A DNA stretch of 36,023 nt from Nitrospirota bacterium (GTDB lineage: Bacteria > Nitrospirota > Nitrospiria > Nitrospirales > Nitrospiraceae). This document shows positions 4,771-32,378 of the stretch, piece by piece. Position numbers and translations under genes: made by a program. The number at the start of each line of letters is the position of its first letter. The first letter of the stretch is position 1. The DNA lies in assembly GCA_023248295.1 (NCBI GenBank), contig JAHFEU010000006.1, positions 1-36,023 on the forward strand, in the 5' to 3' direction. A model generated the notes under the pieces. It was given only the letters and a program-made list of their open reading frames with translations, did no database searches and had not been told where the DNA came from.

Positions 4771-7746
4771 ATGAAGCTGACCGATTCGGTGCTCGAACCC
4801 GCCATTCGTCGCATAGGCCAGGAGCTGAGGGAACGATCAGCCGGGAGTTCTCCGACGGTGTTCGACCCCCGCTGGTGGTCGGGGAACTTGCTCGAGTGGT
4901 GCATGAAGGATGAGACCTTCAAGGTTCAGTTATTCCGCTTCATCGATGTCCTGCCGTGCCTCCGCGATGATGACCACGTCGCCCGGCTGCTGGAGGAATA
5001 CTTTGGGGAGACGGAGACGCTGGCGCCCTCCCTTCAGTGGGGATTACGCGCGATGTCCGCCACGCGCCTCGGCGCTCGCTTGAGCGCAAAGTCGCTCCGG
5101 CATCAAATCCACCAGATGGCCCGCACGTTCATCGCCGAAGCCTCGATCGAGCACGCAGTGCCGGTCCTGGCGCGCCTCTGGACAGAGGGGCGTGGATTTT
5201 CGGTGGACCTTTTGGGGGAAGCGACGGTCAGCGAGCTAGAGGCCGACCGGTACCGGGATCGCTGTCTCGAAGCGTTGCGGCTGCTGGCCAAGGCCACGGC
5301 CGCCTGGCCCTCCCTTCCGGTGCTGGAGCGGGACCGCATCGGGCCGCTCCCCAGAGTCAACCTGTCGGTCAAATTGTCGGCGCTGTATTCCCAATTGGAC
5401 CCCATCGATCCCGAAGGCTGTTTTCGCGCCGTGGCGGCACGCCTGCGTCCAATGCTAGACCTGGCAGCGACCTTACCGGCCGCGATCACGTTCGACATGG
5501 AACAGGCGGAGCAGAAGGATCTGACGCTGATGATCTTCATGCGCCTCCTGTCCGAAGACGCCTACCGTCGCTATCCCCATGGCGGCCTCGCGATGCAAGC
5601 CTACCTGAAGGAGTCGGCAGCCGACCTCCAGAGCGTGATCCGATGGGTGCGGCAACGTGGCACTCCGGTCACGATCCGGCTGGTCAAGGGGGCGTATTGG
5701 GATTCCGACACGATCCGTTATCAACAGCGGGGCTGGCCGGTCCCGGTCTTTGAAACGAAAGCGGAGACGGATCACAACTACGAGCTCCTCAGCCGGACGC
5801 TGGTCGAGCACGCCAGCCTCATCCGACCCGCATTCGGCACGCACAACCTGCGCAGCCTGGCGCATGCCCAGGCTGCGGCGGAAGCCGCGGGGCTGCCGCC
5901 GGATGCCGCCGAGTACCAGATGATCTTCGGAATGGCCGAACCGCTCCAGACCGCCGTCACCCAGGCCGGAAGACGTGTCAGGATTTACACGCCGGTGGGG
6001 GAACTCCTCCCGGGTATGGCCTACCTGGTGCGCCGCCTGCTGGAAAACACGTCGAACGAATCCTTCCTGCGCAAAGAATACGCTGAATCGCAGCCCCTCG
6101 ATCTCCTCCTGGCTCCCCCGCCCGTCCCGACTCCTCCCACCTCCGGCCGTATTTCTCAGGGACCATCGGAACCGGAACTCGCCGATTGGTTCATCAACGA
6201 ACCTCATACGGATTTTTCGAAAGCGCCGGCCCGAGCGGCCATGGCCCAGGCGATCACCTCGGTCAGGGCGCAGTTTGGCCGTCGACTTCCGTACCCGGTG
6301 GCGCCTGGCCTGTCACCGTCCGGGGCGGATCTCGTCTCACGAAATCCCAGTTCGCCGGGTGAGGTGGTCGGCCGGATGCCCGGCTTCGCTCCCCAGGATA
6401 TCGCCGTGGCAGCCCGGCACGCGCTCTCGAGGCAGCCCGGCTGGACGGCGCTGTCGCCGGCACTGCGGGCCGACATCATGAGCAAAGCGGCTGCCGCGAT
6501 GCGGCAACGGCGTTTCGAGCTGTCCGCCTGGGAAATGTTTGAAACGGGCAAACCGTGGCATGAGGCCGACGCGGACGTTGCGGAGGCGATCGACTTTCTT
6601 GAATTCTACGCCCGCGAGATGCGCCGCACCGGTGCGCCGCGCCGGCTCGGGCGCGAACCCGGCGAGCTGAACCAGATGGCGTTCTCTCCGCGGGGCCTCG
6701 TGGCCGTCATCTCACCGTGGAATTTCCCCCTGGCGATCCCGACCGGCCTGGTGTCCGCCGCGTTGGTGACCGGCAACGCGGTGCTCTTCAAGCCGTCGGA
6801 ACGCGCGCCGATCATGGGACACCTCTTGGCCGACCTGCTGGCCGAGGCGGGAGTGCCCGAAGGGGTCCTGCAATTCACCCCCGGCGGTCCGGATGTCGGC
6901 CAGGCGCTGGTTGCCCATCCGGAGGTGGAGGTCATCGCCTTCACCGGATCAAAGGATGTCGGGTTGCGTATCCTGGCTCAGGCCGCGCGCGTGGACCCGG
7001 GCCAGCGGTCGGTCAAGCGCGTCATCGCGGAGATGGGCGGGAAGAACGCCATCATCGTTGATGACACGGCGGACCTCGACGAGGCGGTGGTGGGAGTTGT
7101 GACCTCCTTCACGGGGTACCAGGGACAGAAATGCTCAGCCTGTTCACGGGCGATCGTCCATGACTCGATCTACGACGTGTTCCTGCAGCGGCTCGCCGAC
7201 GCGGTCATGAGCGTCCGGATCGGGCCTCCGGAGGATCCGAGCAACCGCATGGGTCCCCTGATCGACGAGCGGGCCCGCGCCAAGGTGCGCGAGTACATCG
7301 AAATCGGCAAACGCGAGGGGCGGCTGGTGCTGGAGAGGCCGGTCACGGGAGATGGGTGCTTCATCGGGCCGGCGATCTTCGCCGACATCCAACCGTCTCA
7401 CCGGCTGGCGCAAGAGGAGATTTTCGGACCGGTGCTGGCGGTGATGCGGGCGCGAGACTTCCCCGAGGCGATCCGCTTTGCGAACGCTACGCCATATGCG
7501 CTGACCGGGGGCGTGTATTCACGGAGTCCCGCGAATATCCGGACAGCCCGCGAGACGTTCGACGTGGGCAACCTGTACATCAACCGGCCCATCACGGGGG
7601 CGTTGGTGGGCCGCCAGCCCTTTGGAGGACACCGCCTGTCCGGAGTCGGGACCAAGGCCGGCGGCGAAGGCTACTTGGCCCAATTCATGGTGGCGCGCGT
7701 CGTGAGCGAGAACACGCTCCGCCGTGGGTTCGCACCGTCGGAGTGA
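4771..7746 (+). CDS. putA: Bifunctional proline dehydrogenase / L-glutamate gamma-semialdehyde dehydrogenase
   Basis: A 991-residue PutA that oxidises proline to glutamate in two linked steps, feeding electrons to quinone and NAD+. The N-terminal PRODH barrel shows MEQAEQKDLT, RLVKGAYWDSDT (near residue 303) and the FAD/proline block TPVGELLPGMAYLVRRLLENTSN. The ALDH half shows ISPWNFP (near 646), EMGGKN with the catalytic Glu (near 753) and GQKCSAC with the catalytic Cys (near 785). There is no N-terminal ribbon-helix-helix DNA-binding domain, so it is a non-regulatory short PutA. The length is normal for that class. Its last 228 bp are overlapped in antisense by the next gene. Confidence 0.96.
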   Translation: MKLTDSVLEPAIRRIGQELRERSAGSSPTVFDPRWWSGNLLEWCMKDETFKVQLFRFIDVLPCLRDDDHVARLLEEYFGETETLAPSLQWGLRAMSATRLGARLSAKSLRHQIHQMARTFIAEASIEHAVPVLARLWTEGRGFSVDLLGEATVSELEADRYRDRCLEALRLLAKATAAWPSLPVLERDRIGPLPRVNLSVKLSALYSQLDPIDPEGCFRAVAARLRPMLDLAATLPAAITFDMEQAEQKDLTLMIFMRLLSEDAYRRYPHGGLAMQAYLKESAADLQSVIRWVRQRGTPVTIRLVKGAYWDSDTIRYQQRGWPVPVFETKAETDHNYELLSRTLVEHASLIRPAFGTHNLRSLAHAQAAAEAAGLPPDAAEYQMIFGMAEPLQTAVTQAGRRVRIYTPVGELLPGMAYLVRRLLENTSNESFLRKEYAESQPLDLLLAPPPVPTPPTSGRISQGPSEPELADWFINEPHTDFSKAPARAAMAQAITSVRAQFGRRLPYPVAPGLSPSGADLVSRNPSSPGEVVGRMPGFAPQDIAVAARHALSRQPGWTALSPALRADIMSKAAAAMRQRRFELSAWEMFETGKPWHEADADVAEAIDFLEFYAREMRRTGAPRRLGREPGELNQMAFSPRGLVAVISPWNFPLAIPTGLVSAALVTGNAVLFKPSERAPIMGHLLADLLAEAGVPEGVLQFTPGGPDVGQALVAHPEVEVIAFTGSKDVGLRILAQAARVDPGQRSVKRVIAEMGGKNAIIVDDTADLDEAVVGVVTSFTGYQGQKCSACSRAIVHDSIYDVFLQRLADAVMSVRIGPPEDPSNRMGPLIDERARAKVREYIEIGKREGRLVLERPVTGDGCFIGPAIFADIQPSHRLAQEEIFGPVLAVMRARDFPEAIRFANATPYALTGGVYSRSPANIRTARETFDVGNLYINRPITGALVGRQPFGGHRLSGVGTKAGGEGYLAQFMVARVVSENTLRRGFAPSE

Positions 7747-11021: not shown

Positions 11022-11237
11022 TAGCCCGCGTTATTCATGACGGTTCGTGGCGAAATCGCGCAGTCGCGTCGCGAGACGGGCGCGTGGAGCCGCGAAGGAG
11101 GGAGGCATACTCCCGGCAGTACGTTGACCGACTGAGCGGCGAGCCCGCCCGCCTGCATGCCGCGGCAGCCGCATGCAGGCTTGTCGCAGCAGCGAATCCG
11201 CGATTACAGCAGAAGCGTTCATGAATAATGCGGGCTA
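11022..11237 (-). repeat. MITE-like inverted-repeat element, copy 1 (216 bp)
   Basis: The ends are TAGCCCGCGTTATTCATGA (11022-11040) and the complement of TAGCCCGCATTATTCATGA (11219-11237), differing at one of 19 positions. Read on the minus strand, its first roughly 180 nt align closely with copy 2 at 25036. They include an internal hairpin with 9-bp arms CCTGCATGC/GCATGCAGG. The outermost TA at both ends fits a TA target duplication. It occupies most of the accC-thiE gap. Short frames inside it are conserved between copies on both strands only because the DNA is conserved. Confidence 0.8.
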
Positions 11238-23983: not shown

Positions 23984-24012
23984 ATTCTATCGGCCAGGTG
24001 GTTGCCTGTCAA
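23984..24012 (-). promoter_or_regulatory. Near-consensus sigma70 promoter of clpC
   Basis: On the minus strand a perfect TTGACA (24007-24012) and TAGAAT (23984-23989, 5 of 6) are separated by the optimal 17 bp. Transcription should begin near 23977, leaving a leader of about 57 nt before the clpC ATG. I see no CIRCE inverted repeat or CtsR heptad, so this looks like vegetative expression. Confidence 0.8.
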
Positions 24013-24096
24013 GCCCTTCGTTCGGTTCGTCGCCTCATGGTCCAGAATTCTTCCGCTGCCGAGTCACCGTGCGCGTCCGTCGCGAGCGATCATTCG

Positions 24097-24126
24097 TTGA
24101 CAAGAAAACGGACCTCCCGATACAAT
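24097..24126 (+). promoter_or_regulatory. Near-consensus sigma70 promoter of nadK
   Basis: A perfect TTGACA (24097-24102) and TACAAT (24121-24126, 5 of 6) are separated by 18 bp. Transcription should begin near 24133, about 51 nt before the nadK ATG. This shows the ORF-track start at 23998 is too far upstream. Confidence 0.8.
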
Positions 24127-24183
24127 CCGACCCCACTTCTATTCGTCGCCCCAGTCCATCGCCGCCACCGGGATTGGAGACCC

Positions 24184-25038
24184 ATGAAGACCATCGGCAT
24201 CCTCACCAAGCCCAAGTTTCCCGACGTCAAGCACATCCTCACAGACCTCGTCGCCTGGCTTCGAGAGCGCAAGAAAGAGGTGGTGCTTGACGCGAAGACC
24301 GCCGCCCTCATCGGCGAATCCGCGTCGCACCAGAAAACTCAAATCGCGACACGGTCTGACATGGTCCTGGTGCTGGGCGGCGACGGAACGATGCTGAGCG
24401 CCGCGCGGCTCCTGGAGGAACGCGCCGTGCCCATCCTGGGCGTGAACATGGGAGGGCTGGGATTTCTCACGGAGATCACCCTCGATCAACTCTACCCGGC
24501 CCTCGAGAAGGTCTTTGCCCAGGAGTTCATGGTCGAGGAACGACTGATGCTGCGTGCCGACATGCATCGCCACGGTGAGCAGGTGGCGAAGGCGACGGTC
24601 CTGAACGACGTGGTCGTGAGCAAGGGTACCCTCGCGCGAATGATCGAGATTCAGATTCTGATCGACGGACAGTTCGTGACGCGTCTACGAGGGGACGGAC
24701 TGATCGTCTCGACCCCGACCGGCTCCACCGCCTACTCGCTCTCCGCCGGCGGGCCGATCATCCACCCGACGGTCCAAGCGCTGATCCTCACCCCGATCTG
24801 TCCGCACACGCTCACCCACCGCCCGCTTCTGGTTCCCCGCGACGTTGCCCTGGAGGTCACGCTGACCAGCCAGGTCGAGGGTGCGATGGCGACGTTCGAC
24901 GGGCAGGTGGGCGTCGCCCTGGTGCAGGGAGACACGGTCGCGATCGCCGTCTCCGAACACCGAACACAGCTCATCCGCTTGCCGGATCGGACGTACTATG
25001 ATGTTTTGAGAAGAAAGCTGAAGTGGGGGGACAGCTAG
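24184..25038 (+). CDS. nadK: NAD kinase
   Basis: NadK phosphorylates NAD+ to NADP+. The start is the ATG of MKTIGILTKPKFPDVK (24184), 284 residues, preceded by TTGGAG and placed downstream of the promoter. The catalytic motif is LGGDGTMLSAARL, followed by GVNMGGLGFLTE, VLNDVVVSKG and the conserved TPTGSTAYSLSAGGPI. The length is typical. The TAG stop codon (25036-25038) is the first three bases of repeat element copy 2. If the element were removed at its TA duplication, the stop would become TAA and the protein would not change. Confidence 0.95.
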   Translation: MKTIGILTKPKFPDVKHILTDLVAWLRERKKEVVLDAKTAALIGESASHQKTQIATRSDMVLVLGGDGTMLSAARLLEERAVPILGVNMGGLGFLTEITLDQLYPALEKVFAQEFMVEERLMLRADMHRHGEQVAKATVLNDVVVSKGTLARMIEIQILIDGQFVTRLRGDGLIVSTPTGSTAYSLSAGGPIIHPTVQALILTPICPHTLTHRPLLVPRDVALEVTLTSQVEGAMATFDGQVGVALVQGDTVAIAVSEHRTQLIRLPDRTYYDVLRRKLKWGDS

Positions 25039-25308
25039 CCCGCGTTATTCATGAACGCTTCTGCTGCAATCGCGGATTCGCCGCTTCGACGAGCCTGCAT
25101 GCGGCTTCCGAGGCATGCAGGCGGGCGGGCTCGCCGCTCAGTCCCTCGACGTACTGTTTCAAGTACGCCTCGGTCCCTCGCGGCTCCTCCCTGACCCATT
25201 GCAACGAGAAGAGCAATGGGTCCCCCTCGCGCGCGACTGCCGGGTACCCCTTGCTCTGAGGGAATGCAAGGGGTGGACGCGACGAACCGCCATGAATAAC
25301 GCGGGCTA
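25036..25308 (+). repeat. MITE-like inverted-repeat element, copy 2 (273 bp), in a convergent junction
   Basis: The terminal inverted repeats TAGCCCGCGTTATTCATG are identical over 18 bp at both ends. The left part aligns with copy 1 read on the minus strand, including the hairpin CCTGCATGC/GCATGCAGG. The right half carries extra sequence absent from copy 1, with stems CCATTGC/GCAATGG and CCCCTTGC/GCAAGGGG. The left TAG is the nadK stop and the right CTA is the complement of the reductase stop. The outer TA pair fits a TA target duplication. It may also act as a bidirectional transcription barrier. Confidence 0.82.
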
Positions 25309-26697
25309 ACGTGCGGCGGGGGCTCGTTCGCGCTCGCGCCGTTCCTGGATGAGCGTCAGCATCAGTTCGTTGGACGGAAATTTGAATTCGCCGATACACT
25401 CACGCGTCATGCCCTGTTCCTTCTCGATGGCCTCCAGGAGTCTGAGGCTTTCCACGTCGATCGCGTGCACCCCTCGCGCCTGCAGCACCGTCCGAAGTTG
25501 ACGAAGCACCCGCTCGTTCACGCGAGGCTCCCGCGGGGGCCGTGATTCCAGATATCGCAGGAGGACCTCGGTGCACCATTCGCCGTCCCGCTTTGCGATC
25601 CCGACCAGGCCCTCGCTGGCCTTTCGCGCCCAGCCCGTCAGAAACACCCCCTCGATCGCCGTTCCGGTTGCTTCATCGTAGGCCTGGAAGAGCGCATCGT
25701 CGGGGTCGTTGCCGGTCGATGTCGGGTTCGTGACGAAGACCCCGCTCTTGTACGGCAGCCCGACCGTCTCGTCCACCCTGTCTCCCACGGCGAACACCAC
25801 GCTGTCGCAGGGGAAGTCGTAGTATTCCTTCAGCCCGACCGCCGCGAAATCCTGCCCCTTGGGCTCCAGCCTGGTTTCCTCGATCTGCAACCCCCGGACA
25901 CGATTCTCTGCGTCGGTCAACACCCGACGGGGAGACGCCAGGAAACGGAGCCCCATCTTCGTCGGGCTGGTCAGCGGCTCGCATTTGGTGAATTCGTCGG
26001 TCATCCCCTTGAGGATTTCGTCCGGGTTCTGCCCCACCGCTTCCAACCGAGGGCGAAGGCGGGCGAACTCCTCCGCCAGCGTCGCCCGATCAATGTTCGA
26101 ACAAATGGCGCGAATCTCCTTGGGGTTATACTTGCGCTCCGCAGGGCCGCGCCTCGCGATCGCGGTGACCTGCTCCACCTGCTTGTAACGAATCAGCCAG
26201 TGGGCGATGTCGACCATCACATCGCCGACCCCGATGATGGCGATCCGCCGGCCCATCTCAAAGGGCCGCTCGCTGAAGCCGGGAAGCCGATTGAAATGGT
26301 AGACCACGTCCTTGGCATGATAGACGCCGGTCGCCGAGTCGCCCTCGACGCCGATGGTCTTCGTCCCCTGGGCGCCCGTGGCAAACACCAGCGCGCTGGC
26401 CTCCAGACTGCGGAGGTCATCGACGGTGAGGTCTTTGGTCTTGCCGACCGACACGTTCCCGAAATAATGCACGTTCGGCCGTTCGTTGATCTCCCAGTAC
26501 GACTTCCGCAGTCCTCCCCGCAGCTTGAGCTTGCTCGGGAAAATGCCGTATTCCGCGAGGCCGCCAAACTTGATGTCCCGGTTCAGAATCACCACCTCAT
26601 GGCCGGCCTTGGAAAGCAGGTTCGCGGCCGCCATGCCGGCCGGCCCGGCGCCTACAATAATAATGAGGTGTGCCTGGCCTATTCCCGCGGTTGCCAT
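25306..26697 (-). CDS. Ferredoxin-NADP reductase, adrenodoxin-reductase-like FAD protein
   Basis: An FAD/NAD(P) flavoprotein of the FprA/adrenodoxin reductase type, expected to exchange electrons between NADP(H) and ferredoxin. The FAD motif is IIIVGAGPAGMAAANLLSKAGHEV, and a second dinucleotide motif is IAIIGVGDVMVDIAHWL. Further blocks are ARRGPAERKYNPKE and the C-terminal FAD contact GWARKASEGLVGIAKRD. I use the ATG of MATAGIGQAH (26697), 463 residues; the longer ORF-track start is a TTG. The extra C-terminal segment after the flavin domain has no recognised fold. The TAG stop lies in repeat copy 2. Confidence 0.85.
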   Translation of the reverse strand: MATAGIGQAHLIIIVGAGPAGMAAANLLSKAGHEVVILNRDIKFGGLAEYGIFPSKLKLRGGLRKSYWEINERPNVHYFGNVSVGKTKDLTVDDLRSLEASALVFATGAQGTKTIGVEGDSATGVYHAKDVVYHFNRLPGFSERPFEMGRRIAIIGVGDVMVDIAHWLIRYKQVEQVTAIARRGPAERKYNPKEIRAICSNIDRATLAEEFARLRPRLEAVGQNPDEILKGMTDEFTKCEPLTSPTKMGLRFLASPRRVLTDAENRVRGLQIEETRLEPKGQDFAAVGLKEYYDFPCDSVVFAVGDRVDETVGLPYKSGVFVTNPTSTGNDPDDALFQAYDEATGTAIEGVFLTGWARKASEGLVGIAKRDGEWCTEVLLRYLESRPPREPRVNERVLRQLRTVLQARGVHAIDVESLRLLEAIEKEQGMTRECIGEFKFPSNELMLTLIQERRERERAPAAR

Positions 26698-26768
26698 GAT
26701 GTGATTCCGGCCCTCTTCTCCGTCGCTCAACCGACCGTCGGGCTCGGGGTTCTAAAAAAGGTTCGCGG

Positions 26769-31330: not shown

Positions 31331-31720
31331 ATGAGGCGGCCCAGATGGCTGGAAGTCGGGACAGGACTCTCGCTCCTGCTCTCCGCCGTCTTGGCGATCG
31401 CGCAGCAGGATCCTCTGGTCATCTTTGCCGTCGTCACCAAGGTCTCGAAAGACAGGAAGCAGGTCACGGCGCAGGTGTCCGCCGGTGGAGCTGCGACCGA
31501 GGCCACGTTGATCGCAACCGATCCGATTCTCGATAACCTGATCTGGAAGAAGCTGGAGATCTGCCATTCACTCAAAGCCGAAGCCTGGATGACTCCAGAG
31601 GGCTACCGGCTTGTCTCGGTCAAAATACTCGATGCGGGGATGCTTCCGATGACCCTTCAAGGAGTTGCCGGGGAGTGCCTCTTGAAGAAGGCGTTGGAAT
31701 TCGCCCCGTTGGTGGACTAG
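31331..31720 (+). CDS. Hypothetical exported protein
   Basis: A 129-residue protein with a clear signal peptide (RRPRWLEVGTGLSLLLSAVLAIAQQ) that probably directs it to the periplasm. The mature part (DPLVIFAVVTKVSKDRKQVTAQVSAGG..., LIWKKLEICHSLKAEAWMTPEGYRLVSVKILDAG) alternates short beta strands and has two cysteines (ICHS and GECL) that could form a disulfide. No family was recognised. GAGGAACGAGCAGG before the ATG provides a ribosome site. The TAG stop (31718-31720) is the first three bases of repeat element copy 3. Confidence 0.65.
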   Translation: MRRPRWLEVGTGLSLLLSAVLAIAQQDPLVIFAVVTKVSKDRKQVTAQVSAGGAATEATLIATDPILDNLIWKKLEICHSLKAEAWMTPEGYRLVSVKILDAGMLPMTLQGVAGECLLKKALEFAPLVD

Positions 31721-32000
31721 CCCGCATTCTTCACGAACAAAGCACCGTCGTGAAGAATGCGCCTGCACGTGCGGGCTCCGCGACTCGCCTGCCTGCGACG
31801 AGCTCAGCCGAGGCGAGCTCGCCGAAGTCCGCACCTGCAGGTTTCGACAGGCCGCCTCCGCGGCCTGCTCAAGGCTAGCCCTGAGCGACGCCCCGCAAAT
31901 GCGGGGCGGAGTCGAAGCCCGGAGGGCCCATCGAGACACCTCAGGGCCCTGAGTTTATCGAAGGGCGGATTGTTCACCTCTTCGTGAATAAGCCGGGCTA
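31718..32000. repeat. MITE-like inverted-repeat element, copy 3 (283 bp), divergent interior
   Basis: The ends are TAGCCCGCATTCTTCACGAA and, inverted, TAGCCCGGCTTATTCACGAA, matching at 17 of 20 positions and clearly related to copies 1 and 2. The interior is different. A 13-bp hairpin GCATTCTTCACGA/TCGTGAAGAATGC (31724-31760) is followed by GC-rich inverted repeats, including the perfect palindrome CTCAGGGCCCTGAG (31940-31953). There are also TTCGAC...GTCGAA-type REP words. As with copy 2, both terminal TAGs serve as stop codons of convergent neighbours. Confidence 0.78.
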
Positions 32001-32378
32001 GCCGGTGGAAGACGGGGCGCAAGCCGGGCATTCCGTCCGCTCGTGCTCTGCGTGGAACTCTTCGGAGGTCAGCGGAAAGTGCTGGTCGCATCTCTGACAT
32101 TGCCGGATTTCGAAATAGGCGACCCCCTTCTCATCGATTTCGGTCGGAAGCAGCAATTCCGACGGGTCGTAGCCCAGCAACACCCCGTCAGCGAACTTCA
32201 CTACGGCAAGACGGACGTTGAAGAGTTCAAAGGCCGCCTCCTGCCCTTTCCGTTCCACGACATGACCGACCACGAAGACTGGCTGTCCCCGTCGTTTCGT
32301 CCGCAAATCTTTCAGCGTCCGCTGGGTCGCGGTGGCGACGGTGAAGCCGCCGCTCGAACTGGTTCCCGCCGTCGGCAT
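31998..32378 (-). CDS. Hypothetical protein with C-terminal double-CxxC zinc site
   Basis: A 126-residue protein of unknown function. The N-terminal 20 residues are Thr/Ser-rich. The middle (RGQPVFVVGHVVERKGQEAAFELFNVRLAVVKFADGVLLGYDPSELLLPTE) looks like a small beta-barrel. The C-terminus has two cysteine pairs (CQRC and CPAC) bracketing HAEHERTE, a probable zinc ribbon. The start ATG at 32378 has a modest GGAAGCAAGACT ribosome site. The TAG stop (31998-32000) is the right terminal base triplet of repeat copy 3. It is divergent from the ArsC-like gene. Confidence 0.68.
   Translation of the reverse strand: MPTAGTSSSGGFTVATATQRTLKDLRTKRRGQPVFVVGHVVERKGQEAAFELFNVRLAVVKFADGVLLGYDPSELLLPTEIDEKGVAYFEIRQCQRCDQHFPLTSEEFHAEHERTECPACAPSSTG

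Follow-up and report, generated by a model that had tools for sequence, protein, structure and literature searches.

The window, i.e., the whole stretch of 36,023 nucleotides analyzed here, is one contig of a MAG of 2.5 Mb (220 contigs, 89% complete) that appears to belong to the Nitrospira family. An inverted-repeat element occurred in it three times, at 11022-11237 (copy 1), 25036-25308 (copy 2), and 31718-32000 (copy 3). Copy 3, a non-autonomous, MITE-like inverted-repeat element, lay between two convergent genes, and its two terminal TAGs were the stop codons of both, on the + strand ORF 31331-31720 and the - strand ORF 31998-32378, as had originally been predicted. Copy 1, in contrast to copies 2 and 3, coincided with no stop codon and lay 25 and 19 bp away from its tandem neighbor genes. 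The features were as follows.

31331..31720, + strand: flanking gene for an exported-looking protein of 129 aa with no Pfam match, ending on TAG at 31718-31720
31717..31720: left-hand CTAG of the 4-bp target duplication, whose TAG is the stop of ORF 31331-31720
31721..31997, - strand: type-B element proper, 277 bp, with inverted ends CCCGCATTCTTCACGAA / CCCGGCTTATTCACGAA and, as read on the - strand, a fold of nine helices
31781..31828: palindrome of 48 nt inserted into one hairpin loop, seen in alignments and missing from minimal 195-bp type-B copies
31998..32001: right-hand CTAG of the 4-bp target duplication; its CTA forms the stop codon (TAG) of the - strand ORF
31998..32378, - strand: flanking gene for a Cys-rich, zinc-ribbon-like protein of 126 aa (weak CSL zinc finger match, below cut-off); its stop is the right terminal TAG of the element, CTA at 31998-32000 on the + strand
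25039..25305: type-A element (copy 2), the second double-stop copy, with CTAG and CTAA flanks
23998..25038, + strand: NAD kinase, which ends on the left terminal TAG of copy 2
25306..26730, - strand: FAD/pyridine-nucleotide oxidoreductase, which ends on the right terminal TAG of copy 2
11025..11234: type-A element (copy 1), between the tandem genes thiE-like and accC-like

Superfamily ends and their distribution

The superfamily has ends of the form (YTAR)CCCGSATTATTCATGA. Ends were matched 91 times at up to three mismatches in the 2.5 Mb of the window's own genome and 0 times by a reversed-pattern control, placing the inverted ends far above chance in a genome-wide search. The 91 ends paired up into approximately 45 elements, mostly of roughly 180-330 bp. 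The attributes of a MITE were found in these elements: terminal inverted repeats, dispersal in some 45 copies without coding capacity, a target-site duplication, and an empty site in a relative; a matching autonomous parent, which this class does not demand, was not found in the loci described below. Two interior types were observed in the genome, type A in 36 elements (including copies 1 and 2) and type B in six, namely copy 3 and those on contigs C2, C11, C76, C35, and C28. The original prediction described the related, inverted ends of copy 3 and their coordinates correctly; its statement that the interior was unrelated held with respect to copies 1 and 2 but not with respect to the five other copies in the genome that share this interior. 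Its further claim that ends, not interiors, define the family was supported at the level of the superfamily, in which several unrelated interiors occurred. For copy 3, the notion that interiors do not matter was wrong, because its interior forms a multi-hairpin fold that is conserved and covaries.

The 16 bases directly inside YTAR were conserved across phyla, and the interiors varied by lineage. Ends were detected in Nitrospirota, Planctomycetota, Acidobacteriota, Pseudomonadota, Myxococcota, and deltaproteobacterial groups, and also in Krumholzibacteria, Eisenbacteria, Armatimonadota, Thermobaculum, and others; they define a superfamily that spans at least nine phyla. Most carriers were MAGs, for which contamination of a single record is possible, and two, Nitrospira moscoviensis and Dokdonella immobilis, were isolates. 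Named records with the same ends were mostly from Nitrospira, including N. moscoviensis. A literature search returned no match for the end sequences and nothing relevant on Nitrospira MITEs.

On plasmids, only diverged relatives were found, all in Persicobacter plasmids (L206-L209), where Bacteroidota elements of ca. 220 bp had a family-like left end and a diverged right end (TTAACCCGAATTATTCACCGC). Phages gave only single short matches at chance level. One contig classed as viral (IMGVR_UViG_3300015264_000082; L204, 801-1044) carried a complete superfamily element, a possible route between phyla. Collapsed copies, consisting of a near-perfect 32-33-bp palindrome alone (TAGCCCGGATTATTCATGAAnAATCCGGGCTA), were observed at L150 2044-2076, at L090 3084-3115, and on the - strand of L128 with an end at 5123. 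As the octamer TTCATGAA is palindromic, both ends carry TTCATGAA in direct orientation, which could drive deletion of the interior.

Empty sites and the target duplication

The joined flanks of eight elements were searched against genomes of the family, and a same-genus genome, G001, contained the empty sites of copy 2 (93.0% over 302 nt, ungapped) and copy 3 (93.7% over 302 nt, ungapped). The gene pairs of G001 overlapped by exactly 4 bp at both sites. The empty site of copy 3 read GGATTAGCCTG, with the pair overlapping on TTAG, i.e., the TAG and TAA of the two genes, and at the site of copy 2 the overlap was CTAA, made up of the TAA of the NAD kinase and the TAG of the oxidoreductase. The empty site reconstructed in the original prediction, with both genes ending on TAG stops that overlap as CTAG, was therefore real, allowing for T instead of C before TAG and a few differences further out. 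The empty sites and the 4-bp gene overlaps also confirmed that the elements were inserted with both stops preserved.

The target-site duplication is a 4-bp YTAR direct repeat, and its commonest form is CTAG. Among 111 elements with TA intact on both sides, an inner base A at one end was accompanied by an outer A beyond the opposite end in 25 of 28 cases, compared with 31 of 194 for inner G (P=1.5e-14), and the inner base had no relation to the outer base on its own side (P=1). The inner base tracked the far outer base and not the near one, the pattern that a 4-bp direct duplication predicts. A 2-bp TA duplication, our initial reading after the empty-site test, was abandoned in light of the flank correlation; a length of 4 bp suited most of the informative copies, and a fraction were compatible with either length. 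At 31 ends, the outer base was A but the inner base G. Copy 2 was among such cases, with an empty site reading CTAA, yet CTAG on its filled left side today. Such ends could be due to later correction of the palindrome or to a second mode of 2 bp, and a 2-bp TA duplication with an element-borne G was kept as a minority reading for these copies.

Interiors and the type-B fold

Copy 3 consists of the minimal 195-bp type-B sequence and two extra inserts, one of which is common to the copy on C35. A type-B covariance model (R1), trained on four copies from the window's own genome and one deltaproteobacterial copy with copy 3 left out, recovered copy 3 over model positions 1-195 of 195 (E=7e-48). 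It also picked up new copies in five additional genera of the family, and there were more matches in other MAGs. Type B thus ranged over six Nitrospira-family genera and deltaproteobacterial MAGs. Its fold has nine helices. In an alignment of 16 copies, standard pairs made up 94% of pair cells, and 33 of 74 pairs had changed on both sides, compared with 13.2 after shuffling and 5-10 when the pairing was slid; an alignment not fitted to the structure still gave 26 of 60 pairs, and type A gave 16 of 72. The folds were far more stable than shuffled sequences (z -9.8 for copy 3, and -6.5 and -6.7). In Rfam, no family scored above its gathering score and the weak matches were far below cut-offs, making type B a covarying multi-hairpin type without an Rfam entry. 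Mispairs of the G-U and A-C kinds were near balance (24 vs 20, with one conserved G-U pair excluded), and therefore the data gave no preference for a strand or for RNA over DNA as the functional form.

The fold may serve transposition, may form an RNA 3' end or a barrier that separates convergent transcripts, or may be maintained by palindrome-templated repair. A possible reading, which we put forward tentatively, is that type B represents an undescribed structured mobile nucleic acid of ca. 195 nt and nine helices, present across phyla, whose fold is selected as RNA or ssDNA and for which the 4-bp overlap of convergent stops is a safe harbor. It is rather doubtful that the structure is instead useful to the host, acting as a bidirectional RNA barrier or mRNA stabilizer at convergent 3' ends and thereby selecting stop-codon positions. 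The very stable folds, the strong covariation in type B with some in type A, and the higher frequency of type B on double stops (4 of 18 vs ca. 1 of 131 other elements, P=7e-4, in small samples split by hand from the survey) all fit such a role; however, the region 31600-32100 has no T-rich terminator tail, the balanced mispairs indicated no RNA strand preference, and copies were found in divergent and tandem spacers too.

Somewhat unlikely as well is a fold that is not under selection, in which template switching at replication corrects imperfect palindromes and so leaves matched changes on both arms. This would agree with terminal variants that were matched at the two ends of single elements (TAGCCCACATT, TAGCGCG, and TAGCCTG; genome G013), with duplicated target bases whose A:C and G:T mismatches had seemingly been converted to G:C in many copies, and with the occurrence of collapsed perfect palindromes of 32-33 bp. 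Template switching alone, however, does not account for the hairpin order that Nitrospira-family and deltaproteobacterial copies have in common. In several copies, a TTCGAC...GTCGAA arm with CTCAGGG...CCTTGAG hairpins was doubled or lengthened (A6 columns 141-296; L391, L403, L019); we take this arm to resemble a palindromic repeat motif of environmental genomes.

Mobilization and the use of stop codons

An IS5-like transposase is our best guess as the source of these elements, because the YTAR target-site duplication is highly conserved in the IS5 family (PMC10359306) and because MITEPsy1 of Pseudomonas syringae, probably derived from that family, is described in part of its report as duplicating CTAG or YTAA (PMC3189936). 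IS5 itself carries a transposase, which the elements described here do not. Of what is expected of an IS5-derived MITE, the 4-bp YTAR duplication was found, and ends in common with an IS5-family transposon were not. The same portion of the MITEPsy1 report (PMC3189936) describes a similarly short, non-autonomous element with 18-nt terminal inverted repeats and a 4-nt duplication; it differs in its length of 100 bp, its ends (GGAAGGTCTGAAAAAGCC), its known probable parent, ISPsy2, and the restriction of its reported well-conserved copies to a few P. syringae pathovars, and stop-codon or multi-hairpin traits are not part of the description given there. RUP, Correia/NEMIS, and ERIC (PMC2229807) are likewise small, mostly intergenic, TA-terminated, and hairpin-forming, with a target duplication, but all are TA-ended (RUP inserts at TA) and confined to one or a few genera, as opposed to a 4-bp YTAR duplication and ends in at least nine phyla here. 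REPINs (REP-RAYT systems) share two inverted short units around a spacer, many copies, and no internal transposase, according to part of PMC3116915. They differ in that the Y1 transposase genes of relatives, the criterion for a REPIN/RAYT system, were not flanked by superfamily ends. A symmetric YTAR target with duplication is also not typical of Y1.

A transposase gene bearing superfamily ends was sought without success among the IS701, IS630, IS4/IS5, and Y1 loci of relatives, in 117 stretches from many phyla, and in four viral contigs, and the IS5-family loci (PF01609 and PF13586) were without flanking ends of the superfamily. A search of all fetched loci for an autonomous partner with ends 0.6-3.2 kb apart yielded only two convincing pairs (L240 and L241), both elements interrupted by IS110, and ORFs adjoining unpaired ends, considered as partner genes, appeared by eye to be ordinary genes. 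The two interrupted elements (L240 601-1960 and L241 601-1941, genome G013) are different type-A-like elements. Both are interrupted at one and the same internal site by near-identical insertions of the IS110 family (PF01548, PF02371), which might suggest that this IS targets the type-A-like element.

The main rival to an IS5-like source is mobilization of the IS630/Tc1 type, which we consider unlikely: only TA would be duplicated, CTAG would be preferred, and the element itself would bring the G that completes the TAG stop. Preferential transposition of IS630 into the TA of CTAG is reported in the title of a reference in PMC2170065; two IS630s in Nitrospira relatives (L254, L252) sit in C-TA-G and have ends that start GTGTAGTG / GTGTTGCG, i.e., with G; RUP, the best-attributed bacterial MITE, is linked to IS630-Spn1 (PMC2229807); and the CTAA-to-CTAG change at copy 2 is in agreement. 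A 2-bp duplication does not, however, predict the observed dependence of the inner base on the far outer one, superfamily ends were on no fetched IS630 locus, and the window's own genome had no IS630 match despite its more than 40 copies.

The original prediction held that two insertions of the same geometry made coincidence with stop codons less likely. The geometry was indeed repeated independently, as 4 of 18 type-B copies and the type-A copy at 25036 lay exactly on double stops. In the window's own genome, 18 of 41 elements were on at least one stop (2 on both, 16 on one), and of the 43 gene ends that faced an element, 20 coincided exactly with its terminal stop. One stop was used by 9 of 23 elements in genome G013 and by 25 of 75 in named genomes, a sample drawn by exact end match, in which decayed copies are therefore under-represented. 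In seven cases, a gene running into an end in another frame stopped 19 bases in, on the TGA of TTCATGA. With genes called by a simple hexamer caller in a fragmented MAG and background CTAG sites drawn from the neighborhoods of elements, stop use exceeded that of non-coding CTAG sites only slightly, both in the window's own genome (18 of 41 elements vs 10 of 43 available sites, P~0.06) and in all sets (52 of 139 vs 80 of 284, P~0.06). By contrast, ca. 3 of 139 elements were inside genes, compared with 237 of 521 resident CTAG sites (P=7e-27). The excess at stops was small, and the avoidance of gene interiors overwhelming.

As YTAR is the overlap of TAR on both strands, its duplication leaves a full stop for each gene. 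Stop-codon use is then not a separate property of the element, because a YTAR target, a 4-bp duplication, and selection against gene damage bring it about; target preference plus selection is the simplest account of most of it. In Agrobacterium, the CTAG target of IS870 is also connected with a stop codon, but in that case it is the IS's own gene that obtains its stop from the target, while the stops at the present elements belong to host genes.

Taken together, we consider it likely that a non-autonomous element is moved by a transposase in trans, with a YTAR duplication that spares both stops and selection as a filter. The transposase, which we infer to be an IS5-like, YTAR-duplicating DDE enzyme, would insert the element at YTAR, preferably CTAG, and duplicate those four bases. 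At an overlap of convergent stops, each gene would receive a complete stop and both proteins would be unaltered. Selection would probably remove other genic insertions, causing surviving copies to gather at stops and between genes, and copy 3 would be such a survivor with a type-B interior, its nine-helix single-strand fold maintained by compensatory changes. A YTAR duplication that recreates both overlapping stops of facing genes would provide a simple rule for harmless entry into compact genomes.

That stop codons or convergent gene pairs are actively targeted by the element, over and above its preference for YTAR, is very improbable, as the overall excesses toward stops were non-significant in each comparison and selection alone could produce them, although type B on double stops exceeded non-coding CTAG sites (4 of 18 vs 2 of 284, P=1e-4, small samples). 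The bias of type B to double stops may arise because selection is stricter for an insert that folds strongly. The four double-stop type-B copies, in the window and at L399, L393, and L181, were from four genomes and lay between four unrelated gene pairs.
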